64,000 bases of DNA from an uncultured Bacteroidales bacterium (GTDB taxonomy: Bacteria > Bacteroidota > Bacteroidia > Bacteroidales > FEN-979): positions 1-64,000 of the forward strand of contig CAIWXI010000075.1 of the NCBI GenBank assembly GCA_903916595.1. The letters are read 5' to 3'. This document shows positions 6,201 to 40,257 of the stretch, piece by piece. The notes below the pieces were generated by a model. It searched no databases and was not told where the DNA came from. It worked only from the letters and a program-made list of their open reading frames with translations. Position 1 is the stretch's first letter, and the number at the start of each line of letters is the position of its first letter. A program made the position numbers and the translations under genes.

Positions 6201-6277
6201 GGCCCCGTAGTTCAATTGGATAGAATGGCAGATTCCGGTTCTGTTGGTTGAAGGTTCGAATCCTTTCGGGGTCACCA
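6201..6277 (+). tRNA. tRNA-Arg (anticodon CCG)
   Basis: 77 bases including an encoded CCA end. Acceptor stem GGCCCCG pairs with CGGGGTC, with one G-U pair. The anticodon stem GCAGA/TCTGT encloses the loop TTCCGGT, giving anticodon CCG, which reads CGG. The T arm has AAGG-TTCGAAT-CCTT. A hairpin terminator follows. Confidence 0.95.
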
Positions 6278-8417: not shown

Positions 8418-8424
8418 GGCTTAT

Positions 8425-8859
8425 TTATTTAAGATTTACACAAAAGGTATTTATGTTCTTCCCCTTACTGAAGTGATATCTGAATTCATCCACATTCTCG
8501 CGGGCCAGCATGATTCCCAGTCCACCGATAGTTCGTTGTTCAAGAGGGATTGACAATGCTGCCTCATCGGGAATTTTGGATTCCAGCGGATTAAATGGCA
8601 CAGCAGTATCTTCGAGAGTTACAGAAAATACCTTATCATCGGACGATACGGTGATGTCAATGCGACCGTTTTTTATCCCCGATTCGGTGTAGCCATGATT
8701 GATGATGTTCGTGGCAATCTCGTCAACAGCCAGGCTGAGTTTGTAGGTTTTTCCTGAATCTAATCCGAGTGTTCTTCCTGAATCGGAGATGAACTTTCGG
8801 ATTGAACCCAATGAGTCTAAGGTTGCTGTAAATGTTCCGGATACGGTTGTTGTGTTCAT
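8425..8859 (-). CDS. RsbW-like anti-sigma/serine kinase (GHKL ATPase)
   Basis: 144 residues from ATG 8859, which avoids overlap with the STAS gene and follows a GGAG. The N box is DEIATNIINHGY, the G1 box is a modified EDTAVPFNP, and the G2 box is GGLGIML, as in HATPase_c_2 proteins. It should bind and phosphorylate STAS antagonists and may sequester a sigma factor or another target. No general stress sigma factor lies nearby; the only sigma gene in the window is an ECF type at 47941. Confidence 0.9.
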   Translation of the reverse strand: MNTTTVSGTFTATLDSLGSIRKFISDSGRTLGLDSGKTYKLSLAVDEIATNIINHGYTESGIKNGRIDITVSSDDKVFSVTLEDTAVPFNPLESKIPDEAALSIPLEQRTIGGLGIMLARENVDEFRYHFSKGKNINTFCVNLK

Positions 8860-8860
8860 C

Positions 8861-9181
8861 TTACTCCGGGTAATGTTCAACAATGGTAACACTATATATC
8901 AATCCGGTCATTCTGAGAGTTTCAAGCACCTGCTCCTGCGGTTTTACCATAAACAATTTGGCCGCAGTCCCAAGTTTCTGCTTGGCAAAGATGATGACCC
9001 TCAATCCTGCTGATGCCATGAAATCGAGTTGTTCAAAATCCATTACCAGTTCGGATGGGCGTTGGGGAATAACTTTATTGATCTCTTCCATCAATTGTGG
9101 CGCTGTTGAAGAATCCAATTCTCCGGTTAAGGTCAATTTCGCAACATTGTCGAAAGTTTCGGTTTTCACTGAAAAACTCAT
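8861..9181 (-). CDS. STAS-domain anti-sigma factor antagonist
   Basis: 106 residues, a single STAS domain. The phosphorylatable serine region is LDFMASAGLRV (about 50-60). It would be phosphorylated by the RsbW-like kinase and reactivated by the SpoIIE-type phosphatase encoded downstream. The gene has a perfect Shine-Dalgarno sequence, which is rare in this window, and is tightly followed by the kinase gene (one base between stop and start). Confidence 0.92.
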   Translation of the reverse strand: MSFSVKTETFDNVAKLTLTGELDSSTAPQLMEEINKVIPQRPSELVMDFEQLDFMASAGLRVIIFAKQKLGTAAKLFMVKPQEQVLETLRMTGLIYSVTIVEHYPE

Positions 9182-9188
9182 TTTATTT

Positions 9189-9196
9189 CCTCCTTT
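9189..9196 (-). promoter_or_regulatory. Strong Shine-Dalgarno site of the STAS gene
   Basis: AAAGGAGG on the minus strand, seven bases before the ATG at 9181. Comparable AAAGGAG sites precede the genes starting at 13541 (13550-13556) and 17031 (17040-17046). Most other genes in the window have none, as is usual in Bacteroidota. Confidence 0.8.
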
Positions 9197-9216
9197 ACTT
9201 TATGTGAACATTAGCT

Positions 9217-11346
9217 TTATTTTTCTTTCCCGATAAGAATAATTATGGACCGGGGTCCTACTAAAAAACTTTGCTGGTTTTCTATGCAGGGTTCATGAGA
9301 TAATTGATGAAAATCGAATGGTGCCGGCATGTCTGTATTTACCGAGATATGCCAGTATTTGTCGTGTGGCAACCGGGGCAGCTCAAAAGAGAGAGCTTCC
9401 CAGTACATGTTCATGGCAACATATACGGTATCATCAGATAGATTTCCATTTTTTGCATAACTCCCGTCAAGCATGAACGCAAAAACCCTGCCCGCACCCG
9501 ATAAATCGGCCTGCCAGGGTTTGGTTCCATGAAGTGAAATATCCGTATAACCCGTGTTCATGTAGTCGGAACCTCTGAAATGTTCTTTGTTTCTGAGTAC
9601 CGGATGACAACGCCGGAAATTGATAATATGTTTAATAAAATTATAAAGTCCGGCATTCGTTTCGATTAAGTTCCAGTCAAGCCAGTTGAGTTCATTATCA
9701 TGACAATAGGTGTTATTATTCCCATGTTGGGTGCGGCCCATTTCATCGCCCATCAGGATCATCGGTACGCCCTGGCTTACCATGAGCATGGTCATCGCGT
9801 TTTTTATCTGTTTTTGCCTCAGAGTATTAATAAAGATATCGTCGGTTTCTCCTTCAAATCCGCAATTCCAACTATCGTTTTCGTTGTTGCCATCCATATT
9901 GTTTTCGCCATTGGCTTCATTGTGCTTCTGGTTATATGATACCATATCGTACAGTGTAAAACCATCGTGACAGCTTATAAAATTTATACCCGCGTTGGCT
10001 CCCCTTTTACTATACATCTCGGGCGATCCCTGGATCCTTTCTGAAAAATCAGCCACCACACCTGCATCTCCTTTCAGAAATTTGCGAATTGTATCGCGGT
10101 ACATCCCGTTCCATTCGGCCCATCGCCCATAAGCAGGGAAGGTGCCCACCTGGTATAAACCACCGGCATCCCATGCTTCAGCAATGAGTTTGCATTTCGC
10201 CAGTATCGGGTCATGCGCGAGTGATTCAAGAAGAGGCGGATTGTTTAACGGACTCCCGTCCTGCGCACGCCCGAGGATTGCAGCAAGATCGAACCTGAAT
10301 CCATCAATATGATATTCCGACACCCAATACCTCAAACAATCTCTGACCATGCTGCGCACAACAGGATGGTTGCAATTAAGTGTATTTCCTGTTCCTGAGA
10401 AGTTAAAATAATAACCCTCGGGTGTGAGCATATAATATGTTTTATTGTCGATTCCCTTGAATGAGATGGAGGGGCCGCGATGATCGCCTTCAGCGGTATG
10501 ATTAAATACCACATCAAGCATTATCTCAATACCATGTTTGTGCAGTTGTTTTATCAGGGTTTTTAATTCGTCAACCTGCATACCGTATTTTCCCATTGCA
10601 GCGTACCCCGATTTCGGTGAAAAGAAGTTCAGGGTACTGTATCCCCAATAATTAACAAGCAGCTCACCGGTTACCGGATCTTTCTTACTGTGCTCAAATT
10701 CGTCAAACTCAAATATGGGCATCAGTTCCAGGCAATTGATACCCAGTTCAAGCAGGTATTGAATTTTTTCATTGATGCCTGCAAATGTACCGGGGTGCTT
10801 TACTCCTGAAGATGGACTTTTGGTAAAACTTCTCACATGCATTTCGTAGATAATGAGATCTTCGAACGGAATTTGAAGTGGTTTGTCATCTTCCCAGTCG
10901 AAATCTTCAAAAACCAGGCGGGAACGAAAGGGGTACAATTTATCAGGCTTGGGCTGTTCAAGCCAAACCTCTCTTCCCCCGATCGCTTTTGCGTACGGAT
11001 CGGAGAGGATATTATTTTTATCGAAACGATGTCCGGCTGCCGGATCAAACGGGCCATCCATCCGGTAACCATATTCAAGATTTTCGGTGTCCAGATCAAA
11101 AACGATCATCGAATAAACATTCCCGATCATGAAATGTTCGGGGAAAGGGATTTCGGCAAATGGCAGGCTGGCGTTTTTTTTAAATAATACAAGCGAACAT
11201 GAAGTAGCCGCAGCGGAGTATATCGAAAAATTAACCCCATGAGAGACTATGCTTGCACCAAACGGCAGAACATGCCCTTTCCTGTATTTAATCCCATCGC
11301 ATTCATGCGTGGGATAATAGTCGATTCTGGTATCTATTTCAGCCAT
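9217..11346 (-). CDS. glgX: Glycogen-debranching enzyme / isoamylase (GlgX-like)
   Basis: 709 residues from ATG 11346. GH13 enzyme that hydrolyses alpha-1,6 branches. An N-terminal CBM48-like domain (VNFSIYSAAATSCSL) is followed by the GH13 barrel with DVVFNHTAEG (region I), GFRFDLAA (region II, nucleophile Asp), IAEAWDAGG (region III, acid Glu) and ISCHDGFTL (region IV, Asp). It lies between two STAS genes in what looks like one operon, overlapping the upstream STAS frame only in its untranslated 5' part. This suggests that branched-glucan use is coupled to the stress module. Confidence 0.93.
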   Translation of the reverse strand: MAEIDTRIDYYPTHECDGIKYRKGHVLPFGASIVSHGVNFSIYSAAATSCSLVLFKKNASLPFAEIPFPEHFMIGNVYSMIVFDLDTENLEYGYRMDGPFDPAAGHRFDKNNILSDPYAKAIGGREVWLEQPKPDKLYPFRSRLVFEDFDWEDDKPLQIPFEDLIIYEMHVRSFTKSPSSGVKHPGTFAGINEKIQYLLELGINCLELMPIFEFDEFEHSKKDPVTGELLVNYWGYSTLNFFSPKSGYAAMGKYGMQVDELKTLIKQLHKHGIEIMLDVVFNHTAEGDHRGPSISFKGIDNKTYYMLTPEGYYFNFSGTGNTLNCNHPVVRSMVRDCLRYWVSEYHIDGFRFDLAAILGRAQDGSPLNNPPLLESLAHDPILAKCKLIAEAWDAGGLYQVGTFPAYGRWAEWNGMYRDTIRKFLKGDAGVVADFSERIQGSPEMYSKRGANAGINFISCHDGFTLYDMVSYNQKHNEANGENNMDGNNENDSWNCGFEGETDDIFINTLRQKQIKNAMTMLMVSQGVPMILMGDEMGRTQHGNNNTYCHDNELNWLDWNLIETNAGLYNFIKHIINFRRCHPVLRNKEHFRGSDYMNTGYTDISLHGTKPWQADLSGAGRVFAFMLDGSYAKNGNLSDDTVYVAMNMYWEALSFELPRLPHDKYWHISVNTDMPAPFDFHQLSHEPCIENQQSFLVGPRSIIILIGKEK

Positions 11347-11351
11347 AAAAA

Positions 11352-11681
11352 TCAAAATGAGTTAAGCGCATCGGCTTTGTTTTGAAAAATTTCGAAGAAA
11401 TTAATGAAGCCGGTAAGCGCCATAATATCTTTTATCTCATCAGATACCCCCGATAAAATAACTTTCCCGTTTCTTGATTTAATTTGCCGGTAAATCAATA
11501 GCAGCATTCTCAAACCAGCGCTGGAAACGAAATCGACTTCCGACAAGTCCAGCAGAACGTTGGTTGCTTCAGCCACTCTTTCATATAAATTAACTTGAAT
11601 ATCACCGGCTGTATTGCTGTCGATACTTCCCTCGATTGCAATGATCAGAATATTCCCGGCAGTTGTATAAATTACATTCAT
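11352..11681 (-). CDS. Second STAS-domain antagonist
   Basis: 109 residues, a single STAS domain with VLLDLSEVDFVSSAGLRML (about 40-58), including the serine expected to be phosphorylated. It is more similar to bacterial RsbV than the STAS protein at 8861. It lies five bases upstream of the debranching-enzyme start and 12 bases after the epimerase gene. Two antagonists with one kinase and one phosphatase suggest either two outputs or a redundant pair. Confidence 0.92.
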   Translation of the reverse strand: MNVIYTTAGNILIIAIEGSIDSNTAGDIQVNLYERVAEATNVLLDLSEVDFVSSAGLRMLLLIYRQIKSRNGKVILSGVSDEIKDIMALTGFINFFEIFQNKADALNSF

Positions 11682-11693
11682 AATTCAATGGTG

Positions 11694-13541
11694 TTAAGTA
11701 CGATAGTGATCCAGCCAGGTTTTTGGCGATATTTTTACTTTCACCCTTATCTGATTGCCGGTTTCAGGTAACTGAACGGTCAGCTTGTCTGCATCGAAGT
11801 TGGTGTAAGGTTTATCATCTATAAAGCACTCTTCAATAACAACACTGTCGGGAGGAAGAATATCAGGAGAAACATGAAGTATGTTATCCTTAAATCCGTT
11901 GGGATATGGTTTGAAGTACAAATACAGTGGTTGTTTGGCAATCAGCAGGTTTATATAGGTAGCCGACAGGTAGCAGAGTTCCATACTATGGTACGCGCTC
12001 ATCGAGTGACTTCCTTTGAACCGTTCGTTGCCTAACAGATAAGGCAGGCCATTGGCCAGTGTGTTGAAATAGACGCCCCCATCATCGCAATCAAGAAAAA
12101 AAGCATTATAAAAGGCTGCCACTTCACGGGCGCATTTGTTATATTCGTCATCCTTCAGAATTCCAAATAAAATAAGATATGCAAGGATGGCTTGCTCCTG
12201 TTGCCACCAGGCTTTTCGGTCATGCCAAACAAAACGGTGATGCCTGCCATCGGGTTTGAGCACTCTTTCCACCATATCGTACCAGCCGCCTCGCTGTCTG
12301 TCGCATCCGGCTCCGGGCATGATCTCAGCAATTTTGCGGGCGAATTCGACGTACTCTTTTTTTGGTTTCAGCGATTGCATCCTCATCAGGTTCCATGCGA
12401 TCTTCAGGTTATGACCAACAACAGCCCTGTTCTGCTGCCAGCCCCATGACTGGTCTTTGCTCCAGTCTTCAAAGAATTTCTCCTGGACGAAAGGAGAGTT
12501 CTCATAGTCGGGGAAATATTTTGTGATAGTGTCAAAAGTGTATTCAAGGAACTTAGCATACCTGGGATCTTCAGTAGCTAAATACAGATTAATGAGATAT
12601 GCAGGAGCATGGTCGCCGACAGAATTCCAGTTTTTGCGTGCGCGGTTGTGTGCAAGCGATTCTGCCCGCGGGTCGAGAGTTATTGGGTCGATATGTGAAA
12701 AATACCCTTCGCCTTTTTCATCTTTATAGAATTTGTCAAAAAGGTCAATTGTTTTTTCGATGTCGGAAATTATTTTTGGATCTCCTGTAATTCTGTATGT
12801 TTGGGTGGGTCCGGCAAGGGCGTATATCTGCTCATACATCGGGATTGAATCGTAATCATCGCCAAATTCCGAGGTAAGAAGTTTTGTCTCTTTTTCACCC
12901 TCCACCTTTAATCCGTGATACCAATAAACAATATCTTCATCTTTATCATAAAACCGCATATGGTCGCGCAGATAGTTGGTGCCTTTTTCAGCGCCTTCCA
13001 GAAACTCATCTTTACCTGTTAACAAGTAGGCTGAAGCAAGCCCGAAAATCATTCGTGAAATGGTATCTGTTTCCTGCAGGTAATCGCCTTTCTTTTCTCC
13101 GCCAAGGTGAAGGAATGTACGATATTTTTCATAATCAATATTTTCCTGCGGAAAGTTAAATTGCCATTTCAGGTAGCTGTTGCCAATTGAATTGATTTGC
13201 CTGATCCACCAGTCGGGTTCCTCATGCCGGTATATTCCGGGGCCTTCACCGGGGAATACCAGCGACTGGGCTTCAAACCGGGAATGATCTTCGTTGCCGG
13301 GATAAAATGATCCGTAAGCAAATACAAACTGCCGTGGCAGTGCAAGAAGAGAATACATCCTCCCGGTTGCATCCTGGTAAGGCTCGTCGAGGTTCCTGGC
13401 CCTTCGGGCATAGGTATTTTCGGTAAGAAATATTTTGAACTCCCTGTCGTCAGAAGTTTTCAGCGAGAACCATTTTTCCTTTAAGTTAAAGTCGGAAACA
13501 TATCCTGCAATGGTGTCGGAAAATGTAAAATTGATTTCCAT
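11694..13541 (-). CDS. AGE-family (N-acylglucosamine 2-epimerase-like) protein
   Basis: 615 residues, longer than the usual 400. An N-terminal beta-rich extension of about 130 residues precedes an (alpha/alpha)6 barrel. Barrel landmarks: GHNLKIAWNL, WWQQEQAILAYL, GGVYFNT and KGSHSMSAYHSMEL, resembling AGE and cellobiose/mannose 2-epimerases and isomerases. The glutamate often found after GH is absent (NLK), so the substrate or chemistry may differ. No signal peptide. It opens the epimerase-STAS-debranching-STAS-RsbW-phosphatase group and has its own Shine-Dalgarno and a possible -7 box. Confidence 0.8.
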   Translation of the reverse strand: MEINFTFSDTIAGYVSDFNLKEKWFSLKTSDDREFKIFLTENTYARRARNLDEPYQDATGRMYSLLALPRQFVFAYGSFYPGNEDHSRFEAQSLVFPGEGPGIYRHEEPDWWIRQINSIGNSYLKWQFNFPQENIDYEKYRTFLHLGGEKKGDYLQETDTISRMIFGLASAYLLTGKDEFLEGAEKGTNYLRDHMRFYDKDEDIVYWYHGLKVEGEKETKLLTSEFGDDYDSIPMYEQIYALAGPTQTYRITGDPKIISDIEKTIDLFDKFYKDEKGEGYFSHIDPITLDPRAESLAHNRARKNWNSVGDHAPAYLINLYLATEDPRYAKFLEYTFDTITKYFPDYENSPFVQEKFFEDWSKDQSWGWQQNRAVVGHNLKIAWNLMRMQSLKPKKEYVEFARKIAEIMPGAGCDRQRGGWYDMVERVLKPDGRHHRFVWHDRKAWWQQEQAILAYLILFGILKDDEYNKCAREVAAFYNAFFLDCDDGGVYFNTLANGLPYLLGNERFKGSHSMSAYHSMELCYLSATYINLLIAKQPLYLYFKPYPNGFKDNILHVSPDILPPDSVVIEECFIDDKPYTNFDADKLTVQLPETGNQIRVKVKISPKTWLDHYRT

Positions 13542-13581
13542 GTCAAATTCTCCTTTATTTTTTATGGTTGATTTATTGATT

Positions 13582-13589
13582 CAAAATTA
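13582..13589 (-). promoter_or_regulatory. Possible -7 box upstream of the epimerase operon
   Basis: TAATTTTG on the minus strand, about 40 bases before the ATG at 13541, matches TAnnTTTG. No TTG is correctly spaced upstream. It could divide the long gene row into two transcripts. Confidence 0.35.
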
Positions 13590-13622
13590 ACAATGTTTTC
13601 AATAATGACCTTCCTGAATGAA

Positions 13623-14843
13623 TTATTGAGTTTTTTGCAGATGTGATGTAAGCCAGAGGTGCAATCCCTGAGTTGCCGGGATGAACAAGATAACAACCAG
13701 CGCACCCAGAAGCATAACTGTATTGAAGAAGCTGCCCCAGATGCCGACACTGATAGCTAAGAATGCTGCGATGATTTTATAAATAAATAACTGCCGGTTA
13801 TTTTTTTTATGAAATTTAATAACCCTGTAGTGATGATCACTGTTTTCAGAGACAAGTCCAATCAGAGCAGTGATCAGTAATATGCCTGCAACGGCTCCGC
13901 ACAGCAGCCAGTGAACAGACAAAGGAACAAGCTGCGTTTGTGATGCTGATACAAGAGCCAGTATTCCCGCTCCGACAGCGGTGATACAAAAAGCCAGAGG
14001 CAGATGCAGATAGCTCCAGCTTAATATATACCAAACGTTTCGCTTGAAAATCCGGTACATCACATGATCAATGTAAAGCCACCACAGGAGAAAAGAAATG
14101 CAAAGACCCAGTGCGCAATAAATACCGGTAAGTAAAGTGAATTCTTCATTTGCAGCAAGCCCGTTAACAGAGCCGATAACAGTTTCACCAATGGTAAGAA
14201 TGATTAATAATCCAAACCTTTCCGGAATATGTGAAGCGCTGATCTTTGGCAGTCTGGCCTGTATGCTCAGCGTTGCCAGCGGAGTGAGCATTTCGATGAG
14301 CAAACCCGTTCCCCAAAAGAAATATTTGCCGGGCGCAGGAACAAAAACTGATGCAACCCAAAGGGCTACAGATATCATAAACCCAGCAGTAAAAATGTAT
14401 GCAAGTTTACTTTCAAGCTTGCTTTCTCCGGCTGTCAGCCAAAGATAAATTATCAGCAGCCTTGAAAAAATGTAGGATAACGCGAAAATATTTGCTTTGT
14501 CTCCAATGGCAGAATGTATCGAAAAGGCCAGTCCAGCCATGGGTATCATACATATGAAAATAAAAATTCTGTGGCGGATATCATTCACTTCATACCTCTC
14601 ATTATAATAGGTAATGCTGTTCCATATCCACCAGGCGGGAATAAACAGAAAAATAAAAATGCCAACGCCTTCGAAGGTCGGATGCCTGAACAGGTAGTGA
14701 GACAACTGGGACAAAACAGTCACGAACATGAGATCATAAAAAAGTTCAAGCCACGAAGCTTTTCTTTCTTTGTCGATGTTTTCGTCGGTCCTGATCTTTG
14801 GCTTTTGCCACCAGATATGCTTCCCTTGTCTGAAAACCTTCAT
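13623..14843 (-). CDS. ltrA: Low-temperature-requirement A (LtrA) family membrane protein
   Basis: 406 residues with about ten predicted transmembrane helices. The N-terminal landmark WLELFYDLMFVTVLSQLSH, carrying the ELFYDL signature, identifies the LtrA family, whose biochemical role is unknown. It abuts the VOC gene with no gap (stop 14844, start 14843), so the two are certainly co-transcribed. Presence of a polytopic membrane protein suggests that the cluster may export or import a metabolite; this is inference only. Confidence 0.9.
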   Translation of the reverse strand: MKVFRQGKHIWWQKPKIRTDENIDKERKASWLELFYDLMFVTVLSQLSHYLFRHPTFEGVGIFIFLFIPAWWIWNSITYYNERYEVNDIRHRIFIFICMIPMAGLAFSIHSAIGDKANIFALSYIFSRLLIIYLWLTAGESKLESKLAYIFTAGFMISVALWVASVFVPAPGKYFFWGTGLLIEMLTPLATLSIQARLPKISASHIPERFGLLIILTIGETVIGSVNGLAANEEFTLLTGIYCALGLCISFLLWWLYIDHVMYRIFKRNVWYILSWSYLHLPLAFCITAVGAGILALVSASQTQLVPLSVHWLLCGAVAGILLITALIGLVSENSDHHYRVIKFHKKNNRQLFIYKIIAAFLAISVGIWGSFFNTVMLLGALVVILFIPATQGLHLWLTSHLQKTQ

Positions 14844-15257
14844 TTATTTATCCTTATATCCCTGACTTATTTCAACTATATTTCCTTCCGGATCTTTTAC
14901 CCAGACAGTTTTCCATCCCCTGGTGAAATCATCGAACGCCATTGGTCCCAGGGTGATGATGGCATCACTTCCCATCTCTTTCAGCTTTTCGTCAACATCC
15001 TCTACCGTGAATGCAATATGCCGCAGGCCGGGGTAATGAGGTCCGTCGCCATCTGCAAAAGGGACCGGCCGTTCTTCGTCTATCGAAAAAACTTCAAAAT
15101 AAAAACCATCTTCGTTTTTCAGGAAAAGAAGTTCTTTACCTTCCCCCAGAGCAATGGTTCTTGCTCTTTTAAATCCGAAATATTTAGAATAAAATTCTTC
15201 AAATTTCTTCTGGTTCCTGCAGGTAACTCCAATGTGGAAGAATGAAGTCTTTATCAT
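14844..15257 (-). CDS. VOC-superfamily (glyoxalase/dioxygenase fold) protein
   Basis: 137 residues, one VOC unit: FFHIGVTCRN at the start with the first metal His, LRHIAFTVEDVDE in the middle, and VWVKDPEGNIVEISQ with the terminal Glu. The arrangement HIG, HIAF, EI fits a metal-binding lactoylglutathione-lyase-like or related lyase. In this cluster of DJ-1-type proteins it may act on a reactive carbonyl compound, but the substrate cannot be read from the sequence. Confidence 0.88.
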   Translation of the reverse strand: MIKTSFFHIGVTCRNQKKFEEFYSKYFGFKRARTIALGEGKELLFLKNEDGFYFEVFSIDEERPVPFADGDGPHYPGLRHIAFTVEDVDEKLKEMGSDAIITLGPMAFDDFTRGWKTVWVKDPEGNIVEISQGYKDK

Positions 15258-15267
15258 AAGGAATTAT

Positions 15268-15837
15268 TTATTTTTCAGATAACAGTTCAATAATTTTTTT
15301 TGCAAAAAAATGAGCATGGCCTCCGGAACGCGCTGTAACAAGGTCTCCGTCTACTACAACATCATCATTGGTATAAATGGCGCCATATGCCCTGGCATCG
15401 CCAACAAGATTATTATGGCAAACCAGTTTGCGTCCTTTCACCAGTCCGGCAGCAGGAGCTACAAGCCACAAGCCATGGCAGATAATTCCTTTAAGGATAT
15501 TTTTTTCAGCGAATGCACGTTTTAAAAATTCCACTGCCGGTGGAAGTATTGTTACATCTTCTGTCCAGCGCAAACGGTCAGATACCATACCTGATGGTAC
15601 GATGATCGCTGAGTAACTTCTGAGTTCTTCGTCGCTCATATTTTCAAAAGTCTCTGAACATTCCATGGGAACTTTATATTCATGACCTTGAAAAGTCAGC
15701 CGTTCCTGTCCCCATAAACGTGAAAGAAAATGCACTTCAGCTCCTTCTTCGGGAAACCGGTATTTGTAATAAAAGATTTCATTTTCGTAAAAATCAGATT
15801 CGAAAAGAATTCCTATTTTTTTGCCTTGTAGTTTCAT
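15268..15837 (-). CDS. DJ-1/PfpI-family protein
   Basis: 189 residues, single DJ-1/PfpI domain. The nucleophile elbow IICHGLWLVAP has the family Cys followed by His (about 119-120), and the N-terminal strand GILFESDFYENE provides the acidic partner. PfpI relatives act as glyoxalase III, deglycase or protease-like enzymes. It is one of three such proteins here but belongs to a different subgroup from those at 16276 and 19966. Confidence 0.9.
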   Translation of the reverse strand: MKLQGKKIGILFESDFYENEIFYYKYRFPEEGAEVHFLSRLWGQERLTFQGHEYKVPMECSETFENMSDEELRSYSAIIVPSGMVSDRLRWTEDVTILPPAVEFLKRAFAEKNILKGIICHGLWLVAPAAGLVKGRKLVCHNNLVGDARAYGAIYTNDDVVVDGDLVTARSGGHAHFFAKKIIELLSEK

Positions 15838-15846
15838 ATCATTTTA

Positions 15847-16248
15847 TTAAAACTCAATTATTTTACCGGATATCTGATCCAGGAATGGTTTAAAAGGTTT
15901 TGAATCGTGAAAGTTCGACATATAGACAATCTTGCCGTTTTCAATCCTGAAGTAATTCATTACTCCGCATTCAATAGGTAAATCAGGGAATTTGGCCGCA
16001 ATGGCTGAAATATGCGAAACTACAGCTGCTTCATTGTCTTCAATGATGATATGCCCTGGATTGTTCTGAAATTTTCTGTAGGCCTGTCCCATGCCGTCCA
16101 TCATCACACGGAGTATTGCCAGCGTTTCGATATGTCCTGCCAATTGTTCATCCATTATCATGTCTTCCGCAAAAAGATCGCACCATTTTTTCCAGTTGCC
16201 GCTGTTGGCATATTCATAGTACAGCTCTATGATCTCTTTTGTTGTCAT
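15847..16248 (-). CDS. NTF2-like (SnoaL-type) small protein
   Basis: 133 residues. Opens with an IIELYYEYANSGNWKKWCDLFAEDMIM helix-strand pattern and ends with MNYFRIENGKIVYMSNFHDS, the usual NTF2-like cone with a polar pocket. Members are ketosteroid isomerases, cyclases, dehydratases or non-catalytic binders. It is one of four NTF2-like proteins in this cluster, too different from each other to be a recent tandem duplication. Confidence 0.82.
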   Translation of the reverse strand: MTTKEIIELYYEYANSGNWKKWCDLFAEDMIMDEQLAGHIETLAILRVMMDGMGQAYRKFQNNPGHIIIEDNEAAVVSHISAIAAKFPDLPIECGVMNYFRIENGKIVYMSNFHDSKPFKPFLDQISGKIIEF

Positions 16249-16275
16249 CTGAATTTAATGAAATTTTTGTACAAA

Positions 16276-17031
16276 CTATTCAAGCACTTCCACCAATTTA
16301 TTTCCAAAAGCAATTGAAGATTCGACAGAGAGCCCTGTTACGAATGGATGATCGTATATGCATTGTGGCTTTTCCCTGTTTGCGGTGAAGTCGGAATAAA
16401 CTTTTCCATGAGGACCTACGGCATCTTCAACGATCACTACCAGCGGGAATGCAAATCCCTGAGTCACCAGATCAGTTCCGGGGTTTTCTTTGCTGGCCCT
16501 GTATAAAAGATAAGGCAGGGGTCCTGTAAAATCCCATTCGCGCGGATGGGCAACAACATTTTTTCCGTAAATGATGCTGCGGTGAAATATGTCAGTATCT
16601 CTTGCCCAGACGAATGTGCCGACGGCATAACATAAAGCACCTAATATTTTTCCGGCTTTCCACGCATTCACGCAAAGGGCGTGAACAAAGGGATTCCCGA
16701 CAAGGTCAAGGGCAGCACCAGGTCCGCCGACAATTACAAGCGCATCGTAATCTTCCATTTTCGCATCTTCAATTTTTATGGGTTCATTCCATTCGCCTGT
16801 ATCCAGGATCTGGATGATGCGGTCAACAACTTCAGGTGGATTCACATGATAGTTTTGCAAGGGATCAACGAAATCCTTGTCAACACTTAACATATGAGGC
16901 AGGGGAACGATGCCTTTAGGGGTTGCCAGGGTCAGTGTGTGACCGGCTTTGTTTAGTGCATCCCATGGTGCCTGGAGTTCTTCGCCCCAGAGCCCGGTAT
17001 TTGATGCCAGGATTAAAATTTTTTTTGCCAT
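16276..17031 (-). CDS. DJ-1/PfpI-family protein, Hsp31-like size
   Basis: 251 residues. The domain begins KILILASNTGLWGEEL, contains DALVIVGGPGAALDL, and has the elbow GALCYAVGTFVWA with the predicted nucleophile Cys (about 132). It resembles the 276-residue protein at 19966 in order of motifs and in a shared late segment (VEDAVGPHGKVYSDF versus LTDAVGPEGQYHGNF), so the two are paralogues flanking the ThDP enzyme region. A strong AAAGGAG site lies eight bases before the ATG. Confidence 0.88.
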   Translation of the reverse strand: MAKKILILASNTGLWGEELQAPWDALNKAGHTLTLATPKGIVPLPHMLSVDKDFVDPLQNYHVNPPEVVDRIIQILDTGEWNEPIKIEDAKMEDYDALVIVGGPGAALDLVGNPFVHALCVNAWKAGKILGALCYAVGTFVWARDTDIFHRSIIYGKNVVAHPREWDFTGPLPYLLYRASKENPGTDLVTQGFAFPLVVIVEDAVGPHGKVYSDFTANREKPQCIYDHPFVTGLSVESSIAFGNKLVEVLE

Positions 17032-17077
17032 TTTTTTATCTCCTTTATATTAATTTATATGTGATTTGATCTTATTT

Positions 17078-17419
17078 TTATTTTAGTCCGGAATAATGCC
17101 TGAAGATTTTTCCGTCTTTGAGAAACAACGCATCATATACTTTGGCTTCCCCGTTTGCAGTGTTTATGGTGGCTTCAAGGAAAATGCTGTCATCAGTGAT
17201 AGCCAGTTTTTCAGTTGAAACAAAACCTCTGTATACATATTTCATGTAATCGCCCAGTTGTTTTTTCAGCGCTTCTTTTCCTTTCACATAAATGGGTTCC
17301 GGGGCCACAAAGAGGATCATCATGGCGTCATCATGATAATCATGATCAACAAGTGCGTCGGCATCATTATTGGCTAAAAGCGATAAATGGTTTTCGTAAA
17401 ATCCCTGGTTTGTCATCAT
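17078..17419 (-). CDS. NTF2-like small protein
   Basis: 113 residues. Begins with an NHLSLLANNDADALVDHDYHDDA helix and ends KVYDALFLKDGKIFRHYSGLK, the typical last two strands of SnoaL-like folds. ATG at 17419 is used; a second ATG follows immediately. Lies 24 bases after the NTF2-like gene at 17444. Confidence 0.82.
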   Translation of the reverse strand: MMTNQGFYENHLSLLANNDADALVDHDYHDDAMMILFVAPEPIYVKGKEALKKQLGDYMKYVYRGFVSTEKLAITDDSIFLEATINTANGEAKVYDALFLKDGKIFRHYSGLK

Positions 17420-17443
17420 ATCATTTTTTATGTTTTGATCATT

Positions 17444-17836
17444 TTAGGAAAGCGTACCATCGGGATATTGAACCATCCCGGCAAAATGGATTTTAATTTT
17501 TCCGTTTTCAAGAACCCAGCTGTCGGCGAATCTCATTTTGGCTTCGCCTTCTTTGGTTTTCATGGTGATCTGCTCAGTGATCATCAGGCATTGGGGGTTT
17601 TCAGTTTCCCCCCAGAAAATAATTTCCGTATCCAGTCCGTCAATACCGAGAATTCCCTGCATGTGCTCCCGTAATTGAGTTTTACCTTTATAATAAAGGG
17701 GTTTTTTCATAAAACTGCTGATAAGCAAACAGTCATCAGTGTATTGATCCAGCAGGGCATCTATGTTTTTATCAAGGATGTTCCGGATGTGTTCGCGGTA
17801 CATCCGGCCCAGTTTGGTGTCGGGAACATTTTTCAT
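17444..17836 (-). CDS. NTF2-like small protein
   Basis: 130 residues. Helical start MYREHIRNILDKNIDALLDQYTDD, then a KGKTQLREHMQ helix and terminal strands DSWVLENGKIKIHFAGM. Closest in style to the neighbour at 17078 (both have YYKGK/YVKGK before the helix), so these two may be diverged duplicates. Function unknown; SnoaL-like isomerase or binding role possible. Confidence 0.82.
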   Translation of the reverse strand: MKNVPDTKLGRMYREHIRNILDKNIDALLDQYTDDCLLISSFMKKPLYYKGKTQLREHMQGILGIDGLDTEIIFWGETENPQCLMITEQITMKTKEGEAKMRFADSWVLENGKIKIHFAGMVQYPDGTLS

Positions 17837-17846
17837 TTTTCAGAAA

Positions 17847-18281
17847 TTAAAGTTTGGCTGATCCTTTATGATATTTAAGTTCGTCGACGATATAAACTGT
17901 GATCACAATTCTTCCGTCTTCGATGGCTACTTCCCAGGTTTGGTAAGCATCGCATTTTATCCTTTTGCTGAACCGCGCAGGAGGGTTCCATGCGCTGGCT
18001 TCCCACTGAACAACGACTTTTACATTGGCAGTCTGACCATCGGCTGCGATTTTCGATTCAACCAGTTTTACGGTGTGCACTTCGTCAAAAAAAATGCGGA
18101 TTACACCCTGGTACCAGGATTCAAAGCTTGCCCTTCCTGAAAGTGTGGCTTCAGGGAATACCATTTTTACATTCTTTTTTGAAAGGTTGTCAATGAAATC
18201 AACCTGTGGTGCATGAACATCTAGAAACCCGTACCAATCAATTGCAAATTGCTTAATGGCTTCGGCTGTTAATTTTTCCAT
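17847..18281 (-). CDS. NTF2-like small protein
   Basis: 144 residues from ATG 18281 (a longer start at 18308 is less likely because it nearly touches the previous stop). Pattern: FAIDWYGFLDVHAPQVDFI, then GRASFESWYQGVIRIFFDEVHTV, then terminal strands YQTWEVAIEDGRIVITVYIVDEL. First NTF2-like gene after the ThDP enzyme in transcription order. Confidence 0.8.
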   Translation of the reverse strand: MEKLTAEAIKQFAIDWYGFLDVHAPQVDFIDNLSKKNVKMVFPEATLSGRASFESWYQGVIRIFFDEVHTVKLVESKIAADGQTANVKVVVQWEASAWNPPARFSKRIKCDAYQTWEVAIEDGRIVITVYIVDELKYHKGSAKL

Positions 18282-18311
18282 AACTTGTTTATATAATTTG
18301 TGAAGCATCGT

Positions 18312-19976
18312 TTATTTAAGAACAAGGTCAATTAAAAAAGGTCTGTCATCAGAAAACATCTTTTTAATGGCCGGTAGAATTTCTTCCGGTCTTTCCACTC
18401 TCACTGCATCGACACCCATTGATTTTGCAATCATGTCGAAACGGAAACCCGGTTCCGACAAATCAAAACTCACCGGGAAATCATGTTTCTGAATATCTCT
18501 TTCTTTCCAGTACTGATCAATATTCAGCTGCAGCAAATGATAAGAGGAATTGTTGCATACAATAAATTTCGAACCGATCTTGTGTCGTACTGCGGTCCAC
18601 AATGCCTGTATCGTGTACATGCAACCTCCGTCACCGGAAAATCCGATAACAGTTTTATCCGGATGGTTCAGTTTAACACCAAGCGCTCCGGGGAACCCAA
18701 CACCCAGGGAACCGCCTCGTGTCACAAAGTAAGATCCCGGATCAGCCGGAGGAATGTAACGGGTAATAGACGGAGAACAGGTAAGCGCCTCATCGAAAAT
18801 AATGGTTCCTTCCGGAATATTTTTTGACAACACTTCTGCAAACTCCGATATTTGAACAGGAAGCCGGCCTTTCAGTTTTTTATCTGCTTCAATTTCTGCA
18901 GCAATCTTTTTTGATTTCGTATCTGAAATTTCTTTAAATCGTTTTCCCGCCTCTGTTTTATATTCAGGAGTCATCAATGCTCTCAAAGCTTCAGACAATG
19001 CAGCAAGTGAAAGTTTAGGATCACAGACAATGCCCAGGTCTACGCGATGATTCTTGGCAATCTCATAAGCATTCAGATCAATATGAATTATTCTGGCTCC
19101 TTTTGCATAGATATCGTCAAGGTTTGGAAAAACTTCAGGAACCATATACGTACCCACAATCAGGTTAACATCACCTTTTGAAGTAATCGGAAAACTGGAT
19201 GTTCCGAACATATGTCCGGTACTTCCCTGATATAACGGATGTTTTGTATCCATCATCACGTCGCCAAAATCAACACCGTAAACTTCTGCCCCCAGTAATT
19301 CGGCAATTTCAGTCAGTTCTTTACTTGCGCCTGAATATGCAGGGCCGTCACCACAAAATATCATTGGTTTCGTTGCAGCAAGAAGCATTTTTGCAGATTG
19401 TTGTATGAGTTCCTTTTCTGGCACCACTCTTGTCGACGGGATGCATGAAGGAAAAACTTCTTCTTCATTTATCATATCAAGAACATCCATTGGCAGGCAA
19501 ACATAAACAGGCCCCATCGGTGGAGTAGCTGCTATTTTAATCGCCCTTCGTATAGTCCTTAATAATGATCTGGTGTCAGTAACAAGAGTTGAATATTTGG
19601 TAACGGGAGCCATCATTGCAACAAGATCGTTAGCCATCTGGCTATCCATATTCATATATTTAACGCCTGCATCTCCACCAATGACCACCAGAGGGGAATG
19701 GCCTCTTTTTGCCTGGTATAATGCACCAACGGCATTACCGATACCCGGTGCGCTGTGCAATTGAACAAGGGTTGGTTTTTGAGAGGCGCGGGCATATCCG
19801 TCAGCCATTAATACTGCGATACTTTCCTGCAGGGTAAGTATATAATGCATGCCGGGATAGTCCTTCATGGCATCCAGAAAACCCTGTTCAACAGTTCCGG
19901 GGTTGCCGAACATGTATGACATGCCATCGGAGAGGAACTGTTCAATGATTTTTTGATTGCCTGATTTACCAGCCAT
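18312..19976 (-). CDS. ThDP-dependent enzyme, benzoylformate-decarboxylase-like
   Basis: 554 residues with the three-domain layout of ThDP decarboxylases and synthases. The Pyr domain has FGNPGTVEQ (cf. GNPGSNE of benzoylformate decarboxylase), the catalytic Glu in LTLQESIAV, and LHSAPGIGNAVGAL with the His corresponding to His70. The PP domain has GDGG-x25-NN (GDGGCMYTIQALW to CNNSSYHLL) for Mg-ThDP. A 2-oxo acid decarboxylase or carboligase activity is expected; the substrate is not visible. Overlaps the upstream DJ-1 gene by 11 bases. Likely the core enzyme of the cluster. Confidence 0.88.
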   Translation of the reverse strand: MAGKSGNQKIIEQFLSDGMSYMFGNPGTVEQGFLDAMKDYPGMHYILTLQESIAVLMADGYARASQKPTLVQLHSAPGIGNAVGALYQAKRGHSPLVVIGGDAGVKYMNMDSQMANDLVAMMAPVTKYSTLVTDTRSLLRTIRRAIKIAATPPMGPVYVCLPMDVLDMINEEEVFPSCIPSTRVVPEKELIQQSAKMLLAATKPMIFCGDGPAYSGASKELTEIAELLGAEVYGVDFGDVMMDTKHPLYQGSTGHMFGTSSFPITSKGDVNLIVGTYMVPEVFPNLDDIYAKGARIIHIDLNAYEIAKNHRVDLGIVCDPKLSLAALSEALRALMTPEYKTEAGKRFKEISDTKSKKIAAEIEADKKLKGRLPVQISEFAEVLSKNIPEGTIIFDEALTCSPSITRYIPPADPGSYFVTRGGSLGVGFPGALGVKLNHPDKTVIGFSGDGGCMYTIQALWTAVRHKIGSKFIVCNNSSYHLLQLNIDQYWKERDIQKHDFPVSFDLSEPGFRFDMIAKSMGVDAVRVERPEEILPAIKKMFSDDRPFLIDLVLK

Positions 19977-20796
19977 ATTTTTTTAATCCTTTGTCTAACA
20001 TTTGCACAAGAACATCTCCGAATTCATAAGCACACTGTAAAGAGCGGGCTGTGAGGAATGGATAATCAAGAACAACAGAGGTTTCTTTTCCGAAGTTCCC
20101 ATGATACTGACCTTCGGGGCCGACAGCATCCGTTAAAACATATTCCAGAACATAAGGCGGGGGGCCCATATTAAAATCGGTATGCAGGAAGCCTGTACCG
20201 TCGTGATAATCATACTCTATGCAGTGACCTGTAACATGTTTTCCTTTTATGATGCATTTTCTTTCATTGAAATCGCGGGCAAAAGCCAATGGCGCAACAC
20301 CATAGCATATTCCGGCAATCGGCATATTCTTCCGGTAGAATCCAAGAATCAATTCATGAAGGCTTTGGTTGTTCACCATATCAACAATAGGCCCGCTGCC
20401 TCCGACAAGGAACAAGGCATCATATCCGGAGGTCAGTTTTTCAACAGCCTCTTTAGTCTTGATATAATATGCTTCTAATTTGCGTAAAAACTCAGGCGCA
20501 CTATAATATGGACGTTCAGGAATGTATTGCTTGAGGTTCATTGGCCCGGAGGTCAGGTTTTTTTCTATGAATTCCTTAACTTCTTTTTCGTGACGGGGTG
20601 TTGTAACACAGACGCCAAGGGGAGGGTCACAATAGGTTTGATCATAACTTGGTGGCAAAGCATCAGAGGGTTTTCCGTTTGGCGTCATGAAGCCGACCTG
20701 ATAACCGGCCGCTTCAAGTTTATTAAAAGGACCAACTAATTCAATGCCCCAGTATCCGTATTCGGACAGGATGGCTAAAACTTTTTTTGTGCTCAT
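19966..20796 (-). CDS. DJ-1/PfpI-family protein, Hsp31-like size
   Basis: 276 residues. Begins KVLAILSEYGYWGIEL with a likely catalytic Glu, contains DALFLVGGSGPIVDM, and has the nucleophile elbow AGICYGVAPLAFARD (Cys about 168). The insertion between first and central strands resembles Hsp31/glyoxalase III-type members. It is the promoter-proximal gene of the 14-kb minus-strand row and overlaps the ThDP gene. A remnant open frame ends 10 bases upstream. Confidence 0.88.
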   Translation of the reverse strand: MSTKKVLAILSEYGYWGIELVGPFNKLEAAGYQVGFMTPNGKPSDALPPSYDQTYCDPPLGVCVTTPRHEKEVKEFIEKNLTSGPMNLKQYIPERPYYSAPEFLRKLEAYYIKTKEAVEKLTSGYDALFLVGGSGPIVDMVNNQSLHELILGFYRKNMPIAGICYGVAPLAFARDFNERKCIIKGKHVTGHCIEYDYHDGTGFLHTDFNMGPPPYVLEYVLTDAVGPEGQYHGNFGKETSVVLDYPFLTARSLQCAYEFGDVLVQMLDKGLKKYGW

Positions 20797-23596: not shown

Positions 23597-26500
23597 ATGA
23601 AAAAACTTTTTACATTTTTCTGCCTGGCGCTCCTCGTCCCGGCAGTCTGGGCTAAACATGTCCCTCAGCAGGATGCAGCTAAAGTTGCTATCAGCTTTTA
23701 CAAGCTGAATAACACCCTGGGTGTAACAGCTCCGCTGCTTTTATCCCAGACTACCCGTTTATGGGAGAATGTGCCTTCTTTCTATGTTTTCCGCTTTGTA
23801 TCGGGAGGGTTTGTGCTGATTGCTGCCGACGATGCGTCAATTCCTGTTCTGGGTTATTCATTCGAGAATGATATGCCTGAGGCAACAGACAATCCGGCAA
23901 CAAAAGAATGGCTCGACAATTACGCCAGAGAGATAGTATATATCATCAACAATAAACTCGACAACTCGGTCACTCTTAAGGAGTGGAATTCCATCGAAAG
24001 CCTGCAGCCGCTTGCCCCTTCCAGAGATGTTGCGCCTCTGCTGAACACGACCTGGGACCAGGGATGTTATTACAATACCCTCTGTCCGGCTGCCGGCGGT
24101 GGGCAGTGCGGTCACGTATGGACGGGTTGTGTTGCTACCGCCATGGCCCAGGTCATGAAATATCACAACTACCCTCCCCAGGGAATCGGCCAGCATACCT
24201 ATACCGATCCGACCTACGGACAGCAGACAGCGAATTTTGGAAATACAACTTATAACTGGGCTACTATGCCCAACTCAGTCGGCAGTAATAATCCCGCCGT
24301 GGCCACCCTGATGTATCATGCAGGTGTTTCGGTCGATATGTCGTACGGCACCAGCGGGTCCGGCGCTTTCAGCGAGAATGTACCCGCCGCCTTACTCAAT
24401 TATTTCAATTATCATCCCGATATCGATATCAAATACAAGGATAATTATGCCAACGTTGAGGATTTCAAAGCCTTGCTAAGGGCCGACCTCGACAACAATC
24501 TTCCGATGTATTACAGCGGTTCCAACCCTACCGAAGGACATGCCTGGGTTTGCGACGGATACCGCCTCAGCGATGGCAAGTTCCATTTCAACTGGGGATG
24601 GTCCGGATCAGCTAACGGCTATTATGCCCTTGGCAACCTCAACCCTGGAGGATATACCTTCAATAACAACAATTCCGTTGTGCTGCATATCAAACCATAC
24701 AATGCCAATCTTGTCGTTAGAATCACCCATCCGGCCGACAGAGCCGTTATCGGAGTGGGTTACAGTGTCGAAATCAATGCCAGCGTGCTCAGGGGTTCTG
24801 CCAGCATGATGAAAATATTTATCGACGACGTCGAGAAATTCTCTGTTACCAGCGACTCTATCTCCTACACATGGAACACCTCAAGCGCTGATCTTGGTTC
24901 GCATATTGTGAAAGCATTTGCATACAGTGCAACAGATACGGTATATTATAAGGAGCTGGTGAACGTGGCCGAATGGGTCTCACAGTCCAGCGGATTTGCC
25001 GCTCCATCACGAGCCCTCTCATACTTATCGGCTCTCGACAGCAACAGCGTATGGGCCACGGCATCAGACGGGAACAACATGACCGGCGCCTGTTCCGATT
25101 TTGCAAAAACAACCAACGGAGGCAACCACTGGACTCCCGGCGTGATCACCAATACCACGGGCCTTGCTTCAGCCATGATTTTCGCCATCGACACTTCTAC
25201 AGCCTGGGTGGCCATGTACAAAGTTGCGGGCAGTAAACCCATGGGTATTTATATGACTGCGGATGGAGGAGCTACCTGGGCCCGCCAGACTACCGCTTCG
25301 TTCAGTAACTCGGCATCCTTCCCGAATATAGTCCATTTTTTCAATTCCAGTGACGGGATTTGCATGGGCGACCCTATCAGCGGTAAATTCGAGATTTATA
25401 CAACCTCCAACGGTGGTACGAACTGGGCTCTGATAGCAGCTGCAGGCAACCCTGCTCCCCAGAGCGGTGAGTTTGGCGTTGTGGGCTACTATTGCGCTGT
25501 GCATGATACGATCTGGTTCGGAACGAATAAAGGAAGGGTATATAAATCGGTCAATAAAGGTGTTTCCTGGACCGTGGCCTCTGCTCCCGGTATGAATGCA
25601 GCCTATGTGAAACCTATGTTCAGAAACGGGAGCCACGGCTTGTTACAGGATGAAAGTACAGGTATGGGTCTTCTTTGCGAATCCTTCGACGGGGGAGCTA
25701 CCTGGACCCAGCTTACTTTTACAGGTTCTGCCTATTCAGGAGATATTGCATATGTGCCCGGTACGGTGAATACATGGGTACGATCGGGTTATCAGTCCAA
25801 CCTGGGTTGTGCCTATTCCTTCGATGGCGGTCACAACTGGACCGATTTTGTTGGAACCACCGGCGCTGAGTACTACCAGATGTCATGGGTCAACAATCAC
25901 TGCGGATGGTCAGGGAGCATGAATACCAGCCCCACCGAAAACGGAGCATACAAATTTATCGGACTGCTCCAGCCCTCTTTGCCTCCACCCCAGAATGTGA
26001 TGGCTGCAGCAACAGCTCACGATGTTGTCATTACCTGGGAAGCTCCGTCATACAACCCCGCACAGATGACATTGCAAGGTTATAATATAAGCCGCAACGG
26101 GACAAAGATCAACCCAAGCCCGCTTACTGTTCTGAATTATACTGACCAGGGCGTACCCAGCGGACAGCAAACATACTGCGTTATGGCGCAATATAACGTC
26201 GGGGCTTCACCCGACAGCTGTAAGACCGTTGATGTTGCTGTTGGGATCAGGCCTTCGGGCGACCAGCCTTCATTGCTGATCTACCCAAACCCCGCTCACG
26301 AAAGAATTATGGTAAAGACCGCCGGCCAGAATCCACTGATCAGCATCTATAACCAAACCGGAAATCTGATGCCGCTGTCTGTAAAAAATCTGTCGGACGA
26401 CCTTTCAACCCTCGACATCTCAGAGCTGCCGGCAGGAATCTACCTGGTTTCGGTGAGCAGTTCACAAGGGATTGCAAGGACTAAACTGGTTGTTTACTAA
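23597..26500 (+). CDS. Secreted C10 (streptopain-like) cysteine peptidase with T9SS sorting tail
   Basis: 967 residues. Order: signal peptide (1-19, ending VWA); Spi-like inhibitory prodomain (about 20-140); C10 peptidase with nucleophile Cys178 in TGCVATAMAQ and His315 in EGHAWVCDGY; an Ig-like module (about 372-455); a region of BNR/photosynthesis-stability-like repeats with recurring GGxxW signatures (about 470-790); a fibronectin III-like module (about 795-880); and a type IX sorting domain (LLIYPNPAHE to KLVVY). The protein should cross the outer membrane by T9SS and self-activate by loss of the prodomain. Most residues after about 370 probably bind surfaces or substrates. Confidence 0.92.
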   Translation: MKKLFTFFCLALLVPAVWAKHVPQQDAAKVAISFYKLNNTLGVTAPLLLSQTTRLWENVPSFYVFRFVSGGFVLIAADDASIPVLGYSFENDMPEATDNPATKEWLDNYAREIVYIINNKLDNSVTLKEWNSIESLQPLAPSRDVAPLLNTTWDQGCYYNTLCPAAGGGQCGHVWTGCVATAMAQVMKYHNYPPQGIGQHTYTDPTYGQQTANFGNTTYNWATMPNSVGSNNPAVATLMYHAGVSVDMSYGTSGSGAFSENVPAALLNYFNYHPDIDIKYKDNYANVEDFKALLRADLDNNLPMYYSGSNPTEGHAWVCDGYRLSDGKFHFNWGWSGSANGYYALGNLNPGGYTFNNNNSVVLHIKPYNANLVVRITHPADRAVIGVGYSVEINASVLRGSASMMKIFIDDVEKFSVTSDSISYTWNTSSADLGSHIVKAFAYSATDTVYYKELVNVAEWVSQSSGFAAPSRALSYLSALDSNSVWATASDGNNMTGACSDFAKTTNGGNHWTPGVITNTTGLASAMIFAIDTSTAWVAMYKVAGSKPMGIYMTADGGATWARQTTASFSNSASFPNIVHFFNSSDGICMGDPISGKFEIYTTSNGGTNWALIAAAGNPAPQSGEFGVVGYYCAVHDTIWFGTNKGRVYKSVNKGVSWTVASAPGMNAAYVKPMFRNGSHGLLQDESTGMGLLCESFDGGATWTQLTFTGSAYSGDIAYVPGTVNTWVRSGYQSNLGCAYSFDGGHNWTDFVGTTGAEYYQMSWVNNHCGWSGSMNTSPTENGAYKFIGLLQPSLPPPQNVMAAATAHDVVITWEAPSYNPAQMTLQGYNISRNGTKINPSPLTVLNYTDQGVPSGQQTYCVMAQYNVGASPDSCKTVDVAVGIRPSGDQPSLLIYPNPAHERIMVKTAGQNPLISIYNQTGNLMPLSVKNLSDDLSTLDISELPAGIYLVSVSSSQGIARTKLVVY

Positions 26501-40205: not shown

Positions 40206-40257
40206 CTTTTATTAATTACTGCGGATGAAGACCGGCGGCACAAAAGGCGTGGACGAA

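Follow-up and report, generated by a model that had tools for sequence, protein, structure and literature searches.

The proteins encoded at the locus described here belong to known families, and their closest described counterparts are found in the glycogen operons (glgBCA/PX), in the RsbU/RsbV/RsbW partner switches, in Hsp31/HchA and DJ-1D-type glyoxalase III, in the superfamily of benzoylformate decarboxylase (BFD) and acetolactate synthase, and in the N-acylglucosamine and cellobiose 2-epimerases. No paper on the combination of these genes was found in the open literature, which omits most subscription journals; as far as that literature goes, the combination is undescribed, and there is a fair chance that it represents a new pathway. 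The cluster was found in a window of 64,000 nucleotides (the whole stretch of DNA that was analysed) from an uncultured Bacteroidales bacterium, and it probably encodes an undescribed metabolic pathway. The reading that we prefer, with a probability of roughly 0.4, is that of a single metabolic cassette that moves horizontally and is controlled by a stress switch, in which sugar from glycogen would be converted through carbonyl intermediates into a small metabolite that is made or disposed of.

The initial annotation described ten adjacent minus-strand genes at 13623–20796, separated by tiny gaps or overlaps. All ten ORFs are present there, with junctions of −11 to +46 bp, and the boundaries proved too narrow. 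Six further minus-strand genes continue the run from 13623 to 6774 with junctions of −32 to +81 bp, and the whole run comprises 16 genes at 6774–20796, all 15 junctions falling within that wider range. The six-gene extension (AGE, STAS, GlgX, STAS, HATPase and SpoIIE) belongs to the conserved unit, as shown by a comparison of 80 loci. These are the best loci, at 56–75% identity, when one genome per species was scanned using the ThDP protein as the sole query. The counts given below refer to relatives of the window genes in the flanks (up to 10 kb) of these ThDP-selected loci and are lower bounds, because many contigs end inside the cluster.

6201–6277, plus strand: tRNA-Arg (CCG), at the island border; also found in congeners without the cluster
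6774–8417, minus strand: SpoIIE-type PP2C phosphatase (PF07228), last gene of the run
8425–8892, minus strand: HATPase_c_2, RsbW-like anti-sigma/kinase (PF13581); 16 of 80 loci
8861–9181, minus strand: STAS anti-sigma antagonist 2 (TIGR00377, above cut-off); 16 of 80
9217–11355, minus strand: GlgX-type glycogen debranching enzyme (GH13, TIGR02100); 38 of 80
11352–11681, minus strand: STAS anti-sigma antagonist 1 (TIGR00377, above cut-off), between AGE and GlgX in relatives; 21 of 80
11694–13541, minus strand: AGE-family (GlcNAc 2-epimerase-like) epimerase/isomerase, 615 aa, own subfamily (PF07221); 45 of 80
13623–14843, minus strand: LtrA-family membrane protein (PF06772); 4 of 80
14844–15257, minus strand: VOC (glyoxalase-fold) protein (PF00903); 40 of 80
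15268–15837, minus strand: DJ1c, PfpI-like, with C120-H121-G122 (PF01965); 53 of 80
15847–16248, minus strand: NTFd, NTF2/SnoaL_2-like, over the Pfam SnoaL_2 gathering score; 12 of 80
16276–17031, minus strand: DJ1b, DJ-1/PfpI superfamily, ThiJ_like (Pfam); 4 of 80
17078–17419, minus strand: NTFc, NTF2/SnoaL_2-like, under the Pfam gathering score; 30 of 80
17444–17836, minus strand: NTFb, NTF2/SnoaL_2-like, over the Pfam SnoaL_2 gathering score; 38 of 80
17847–18308, minus strand: NTFa, NTF2-like, SnoaL_2 below cut-off, NTF2 fold in an AlphaFold2 model; 58 of 80
18312–19976, minus strand: ThDP-dependent enzyme, benzoylformate-decarboxylase-like, own clade (TPP_enzyme N/M/C)
19966–20796, minus strand: DJ1a, DJ-1/PfpI superfamily, ThiJ_like, with an Hsp31/glyoxalase-III-like fold (PF17124), first gene of the run; 78 of 80

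Since the 16 genes lie on one strand with such short junctions, the run is presumably a single transcript. A promoter scan of the sequence gave results no better than those of shuffles, and terminator-like sites were somewhat more frequent than in shuffles but scattered within genes, with no clear operon end. The earlier family calls agree with ours for the ThDP enzyme (nearest to BFD), for the VOC and LtrA proteins, and for three DJ-1/PfpI proteins of two subgroups (two ThiJ_like and one PfpI-like). As to the four NTF2-like proteins, two pass SnoaL_2 and the other two are sub-threshold, the fold of NTFa being backed by its model (mean pLDDT 93.6, from an alignment of 45 sequences), which matches structures of scytalone dehydratase, LinA and NTF2. 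The initial annotation was therefore right on the content of the ten-gene metabolic set, and its view of one metabolic unit without a named pathway is supported; it missed GlgX, AGE, the partner switch and the acquired-island nature of the block. GlgX, AGE and the STAS/HATPase/SpoIIE genes are the parts most telling on substrate and control.

DJ1a lies upstream of the ThDP gene, on the same strand and less than 1 kb away, in 75 of the 80 loci, and the two genes overlap in 38 of 76 loci, with ORFs called mechanically. DJ1a resembles Hsp31/HchA and DJ-1D-type glyoxalase III in its DJ-1 fold and in its conserved Cys and Glu, and its structure model matches SAV0551, Hsp31 and yeast YDR533c. However, the Foldseek TM score is about 0.6 and the identity 15–20%. 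E19, close to the N-terminus, and the predicted nucleophile C164 are invariant among 83 sequences. The pair C164-Y165 is invariant as well, a Tyr adjoining the Cys in place of the Hsp31-type His; the motif is Cys-Tyr-Gly, whereas that of the described enzymes is Cys-His-Gly. The PfpI-like subgroup is represented by DJ1c, whose C120-H121-G122 is conserved in 47 sequences, and the VOC protein keeps E55, H80 and E129 among its relatives.

The ThDP enzyme shares with the BFD/acetolactate synthase superfamily its fold, its cofactor motifs (D449-G450 of GDG and the CNN of the GDG-NN motif), the activating Glu (E51) and the His of BFD position 70, since its H74 aligns with H70; all these residues are conserved. 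Pseudomonas putida BFD has two active-site His residues, H70 and H281. Unlike BFD, the window protein has no second His in the stretch aligned to H281 (approximately 279–283, VPEVF), where the PDB sequence itself is a variant. Its scores are also below the cut-offs, with 278.3 bits against the benzoylformate decarboxylase model PRK07092 (cut-off 493) and 257.6 bits against the acetolactate synthase model TIGR00118 (cut-off 538), and it stays under all NCBIfam equivalog cut-offs listed. In a tree, the ThDP family forms one group of its own on a very long branch away from the acetolactate-synthase-type paralogs. An assignment as BFD or acetolactate synthase proper was rejected because of the failed NCBIfam cut-offs and the lack of a His at the H281 counterpart.

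The AGE-family protein has the PF07221 domain (59.1 bits against a gathering score of 23.4) and conserved His residues (H311, H377, H512 and H518) in common with N-acylglucosamine and cellobiose 2-epimerases, but it carries about 150 additional N-terminal residues and scores far under the cut-off of the N-acylglucosamine 2-epimerase model NF052547 (23.1 bits against 600). The neighbouring debranching enzyme reaches 682.8 bits with TIGR02100 (cut-off 640.9) and is the sole match over this cut-off in the host genome. Its GH13 catalytic Asp-Glu-Asp, D356, E393 and D464, is conserved in 33 sequences. By the family cut-off it is a true GlgX, with debranching activity as its predicted function. GT5 (glycogen-synthase-type) glycosyltransferases are encoded elsewhere in the host genome. 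The cluster thus shares a true GlgX with the glycogen operons, and GlgB, GlgA, GlgE or MalQ are sometimes adjacent; in contrast to these operons, the window copy is without glgC, glgA and glgP, and its GlgX is set among AGE, STAS, ThDP, DJ-1 and NTF2 genes. Because catalytic residues are conserved across relatives, the ThDP enzyme, DJ1a, DJ1c, GlgX, AGE and VOC proteins are likely to be active enzymes.

The run ends with regulatory genes. As in partner-switching systems, a SpoIIE-type phosphatase, a HATPase kinase and a STAS antagonist stand together. The likeness to RsbU/RsbV/RsbW extends to the PP2C phosphatase, the RsbW-like HATPase and two STAS proteins with a Ser before Ala-Gly-Leu; the differences are that no sigma factor is encoded within the cluster and that the STAS genes are interleaved with metabolic genes. 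This set is part of the run here and in relatives, and the HATPase/SpoIIE genes are absent from many copies. Congeners of the host hold only remoter paralogs of the SpoIIE phosphatase, with at best 36–43% identity over part of the protein. The resemblance to general-stress switches, together with the Hsp31/glyoxalase III-like fold of DJ1a, is also consistent with an island for carbonyl and osmotic stress, a co-regulated protection kit and not one pathway. In such a kit, DJ-1 and VOC proteins would detoxify methylglyoxal and glycated products, GlgX and AGE (elsewhere GlgE, TreS and GlgB) would tune the levels of glycogen and compatible sugars, and drought or osmotic stress would turn the genes on through the partner switch. 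Some copies are flanked by genes for a cation:proton antiporter, TrkA-C and an aquaporin, and complete or partial copies are found in organisms exposed to drought, among them Nostoc flagelliforme and Gloeocapsopsis dulcis. Nevertheless, the very tight pairing of DJ1a with the ThDP gene, the recurring dehydrogenases and the cyclase-like NTF2 proteins look pathway-like, and the Tyr of DJ1a replaces the His beside the Cys of Hsp31-type enzymes. We regard this explanation as unlikely, and the mobile metabolic cassette is preferred.

The 16-gene block is an acquired island. In three congeners (G001, G005 and G006), a fructose-bisphosphate aldolase gene and tRNA-Arg (CCG) are followed by 1.5 to 3.9 kb and then by a block corresponding to 22.5–26.5 kb of the window, in which about 16 kb occupies the site of those 1.5 to 3.9 kb. 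Between 6.3 and 20.9 kb, the GC content is 41.8%, compared with 46–47% on either side, and GC3 is 0.42 against 0.53. The low GC, the adjacency to tRNA-Arg and the absence at this site in congeners, which are the features of a genomic island, point to acquisition. Among 36 other genomes of the host family, none contains a close relative of the ThDP gene. No direct repeat of the tRNA end of at least 10 bp was found at the island, and there is no integrase among the annotated genes; for want of such a repeat, an integrase island of the typical kind, flanked by att repeats, was rejected. Two further candidates were discarded as well: an anti-phage defence system, as the sole PADLOC hit was the GlgX protein cross-matching GlgB, and phage-borne cargo, for which searches yielded nothing. 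Bordering the island, the congener-conserved locus at 23597–26500 encodes a C10 (streptopain-type) peptidase that carries both a Spi inhibitor domain and a Por secretion tail. Elsewhere in the window, a UvrA-like protein of 1738 residues (40225–45441, plus strand) matches the UvrA DNA-binding domain twice and is roughly double the normal length. At 1530–1690, tandem repeats of about 10 bp (CATCGTACAT) stand at the start of an epoxyqueuosine-reductase-like ORF and encode repeated MYDVRCT peptides; a phase-variable or a misassigned start is possible.

Acquisition as an island would also suit unrelated genes that stand together by chance or merely pass as an island, and the initial annotation had proposed a search for the neighbourhood in other genomes. 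The neighbourhood is conserved in about a dozen phyla, contrary to the lack of conservation that would have refuted the initial annotation. Partner counts range from 78 loci for DJ1a to four for DJ1b and LtrA, and a GMC oxidoreductase, absent from the list above, is encoded in 39. GlgX lies within 10 kb in about half of the 80 loci, and some contigs stop short of it. By record title, the loci belong to Bacteroidota, Cyanobacteriota, Chloroflexota, Planctomycetota, Pseudomonadota, Acidobacteriota, Verrucomicrobiota, Deinococcota, Actinomycetota, Thermodesulfobacteriota, Myxococcota, Omnitrophota and others, although mis-binning can affect single MAG contigs (L001 bears an Alphaproteobacteria title but is identical to a protein of Runella); several of the phyla are confirmed by isolate genomes and plasmids. 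Gene order varies among phyla while the families stay together. In contrast, none of the partners is present in nine control loci, which encode paralogous ThDP enzymes and mostly have flanks of comparable size, and chance grouping was rejected on this ground.

In a reverse test without the ThDP query, relatives of DJ1a were found in 13 and those of AGE in 14 of 395 phylum genomes, 13 of them shared; the Fisher p of about 2e-23 overstates the case because the genomes are related to one another (four families are involved, with most of the 13 in one). ThDP relatives occur, at a strict threshold, in 8 of the 395 genomes, and in 16 of 101 genomes in the family of G250. As pairwise distances between the ThDP proteins grow, so do those of DJ1a, DJ1c, AGE, VOC, NTFa and NTFb (rho 0.28 to 0.83), with none of 999 permutations as high; for GlgX, rho is 0.21, and 3 of 999 permutations were as high. 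This is expected if the genes largely travel together. The gene arrangement is far beyond chance, and grouping by accident is highly improbable.

The core is also carried by plasmids, in Runella rosea, Nostoc sp. ATCC 53789, Nostoc C052, Deinococcus sp. KNUC1210, Gemmobacter aquarius and several Streptomyces. Two Streptomyces copies have the genes for DJ1a, ThDP, DJ1c, AGE, STAS, GlgX, STAS, HATPase, SpoIIE and MinD/ParA in one direction, followed by those for a GlgE-type maltosyltransferase and GlgB. Other plasmid copies have TreS, maltokinase or an NDP-sugar synthase nearby; in some, GlgE, GlgB, maltokinase, TreS, glycogen synthase or MalQ adjoins the core, and in Runella a glycogen synthase gene directly precedes DJ1a. 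There are also versions without this ThDP gene. As annotated, and in the part that was read, genes for AGE, GlgX and a DJ-1/PfpI protein stand together without it in Nostoc NIES-3756, Gloeothece PCC 7822 and Gloeocapsopsis dulcis, and Gloeothece has another ThDP gene nearby. L136–L139, from genomes in the phylum of the host, combine DJ1a and AGE with STAS, SpoIIE, NTFa-like, X25, an MFS-HEAT fusion and GlgX. L140 has DJ1b, DJ1a, DJ1c, GlgX and AGE, likewise without the ThDP gene. The ThDP enzyme is thus a common but non-universal part of the cluster, whose step is not essential in every version, and the DJ-1 proteins, AGE and GlgX are the most stable elements, often with STAS-type control. Besides an X25 protein, L137 encodes two fusions, one of an MFS transporter with HEAT repeats and one of ankyrin with VOC. 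Cyanobacteria have a fusion of a SnoaL_2 domain with repeated FDAQYYAAQNPDL-like modules (L031:5591–6814).

A different explanation is that of a secondary-metabolite cluster, in which a ThDP carboligase would form a diffusible or wall-bound product together with cyclases of the SnoaL/EthD type and GMC/FAD oxidases, while GlgX and AGE would supply a sugar precursor or moiety. The SnoaL/ester-cyclase families are expanded, each locus having several members, and there are tailoring genes of the EthD, GMC, NmrA and QOR types. Nif11-like/NHLP leader-peptide genes lie in or beside some cyanobacterial copies (L130:17543–18203, L134:8069–8785 and L044:5879–6530), and gamma-butyrolactone regulators adjoin one Streptomyces copy. 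However, the leader peptides are found in few loci, the window copy is without PKS, NRPS, terpene or clear RiPP maturation enzymes, and natural products are not usually distributed so widely among phyla. Such a role seems quite doubtful to us.

The unity of the cluster, its conservation and mobility, the conserved catalytic residues and the link to GlgX are observed; for the mobile metabolic cassette, the order of steps, the substrate, the product and the regulation that we infer are as follows. The SpoIIE phosphatase would answer a signal, possibly of stress, and dephosphorylate the STAS proteins, which could then bind the HATPase kinase, so that the target of the kinase is released. GlgX would debranch glycogen or a related alpha-glucan to a linear glucan or sugar, and the AGE-family enzyme may epimerise or isomerise the free sugar or oligosaccharide released by GlgX. 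DJ1a and the ThDP enzyme might act jointly on a 2-oxo or alpha-hydroxy-carbonyl intermediate that derives from the sugar, with a C-C bond made or broken by the ThDP enzyme. Through their conserved Cys, the DJ-1 proteins would isomerise or hydrate reactive carbonyls, and the NTF2-like and VOC proteins could tailor the product together with lineage-dependent GMC, molybdenum-hydroxylase, AKR or SDR oxidoreductases. The product may be a protectant, a signal or a detoxified waste. A carbonyl metabolite may be synthesised, detoxified or salvaged, as proposed in the initial annotation. The cluster may also be an undescribed pathway, spread horizontally and governed by the partner switch, in which sugar from glycogen passes via the AGE-type isomerase and the ThDP/DJ-1 pair to a new metabolite with a protective or signalling role; to this we would give somewhat less than even odds. 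Co-inheritance is no proof of one linear pathway.

A set of genes that is kept over about a dozen phyla, borne on plasmids and acquired as an island must confer a selectable benefit. Its core amounts to about five genes (DJ1a, ThDP, DJ1c, AGE and GlgX), and their product could be traced by metabolomics, for which Dyadobacter, Runella, Nostoc and Streptomyces are culturable genera. The pathway would give functions to families that are annotated merely as DJ-1/PfpI, NTF2-like, AGE family and thiamine pyrophosphate-binding protein.
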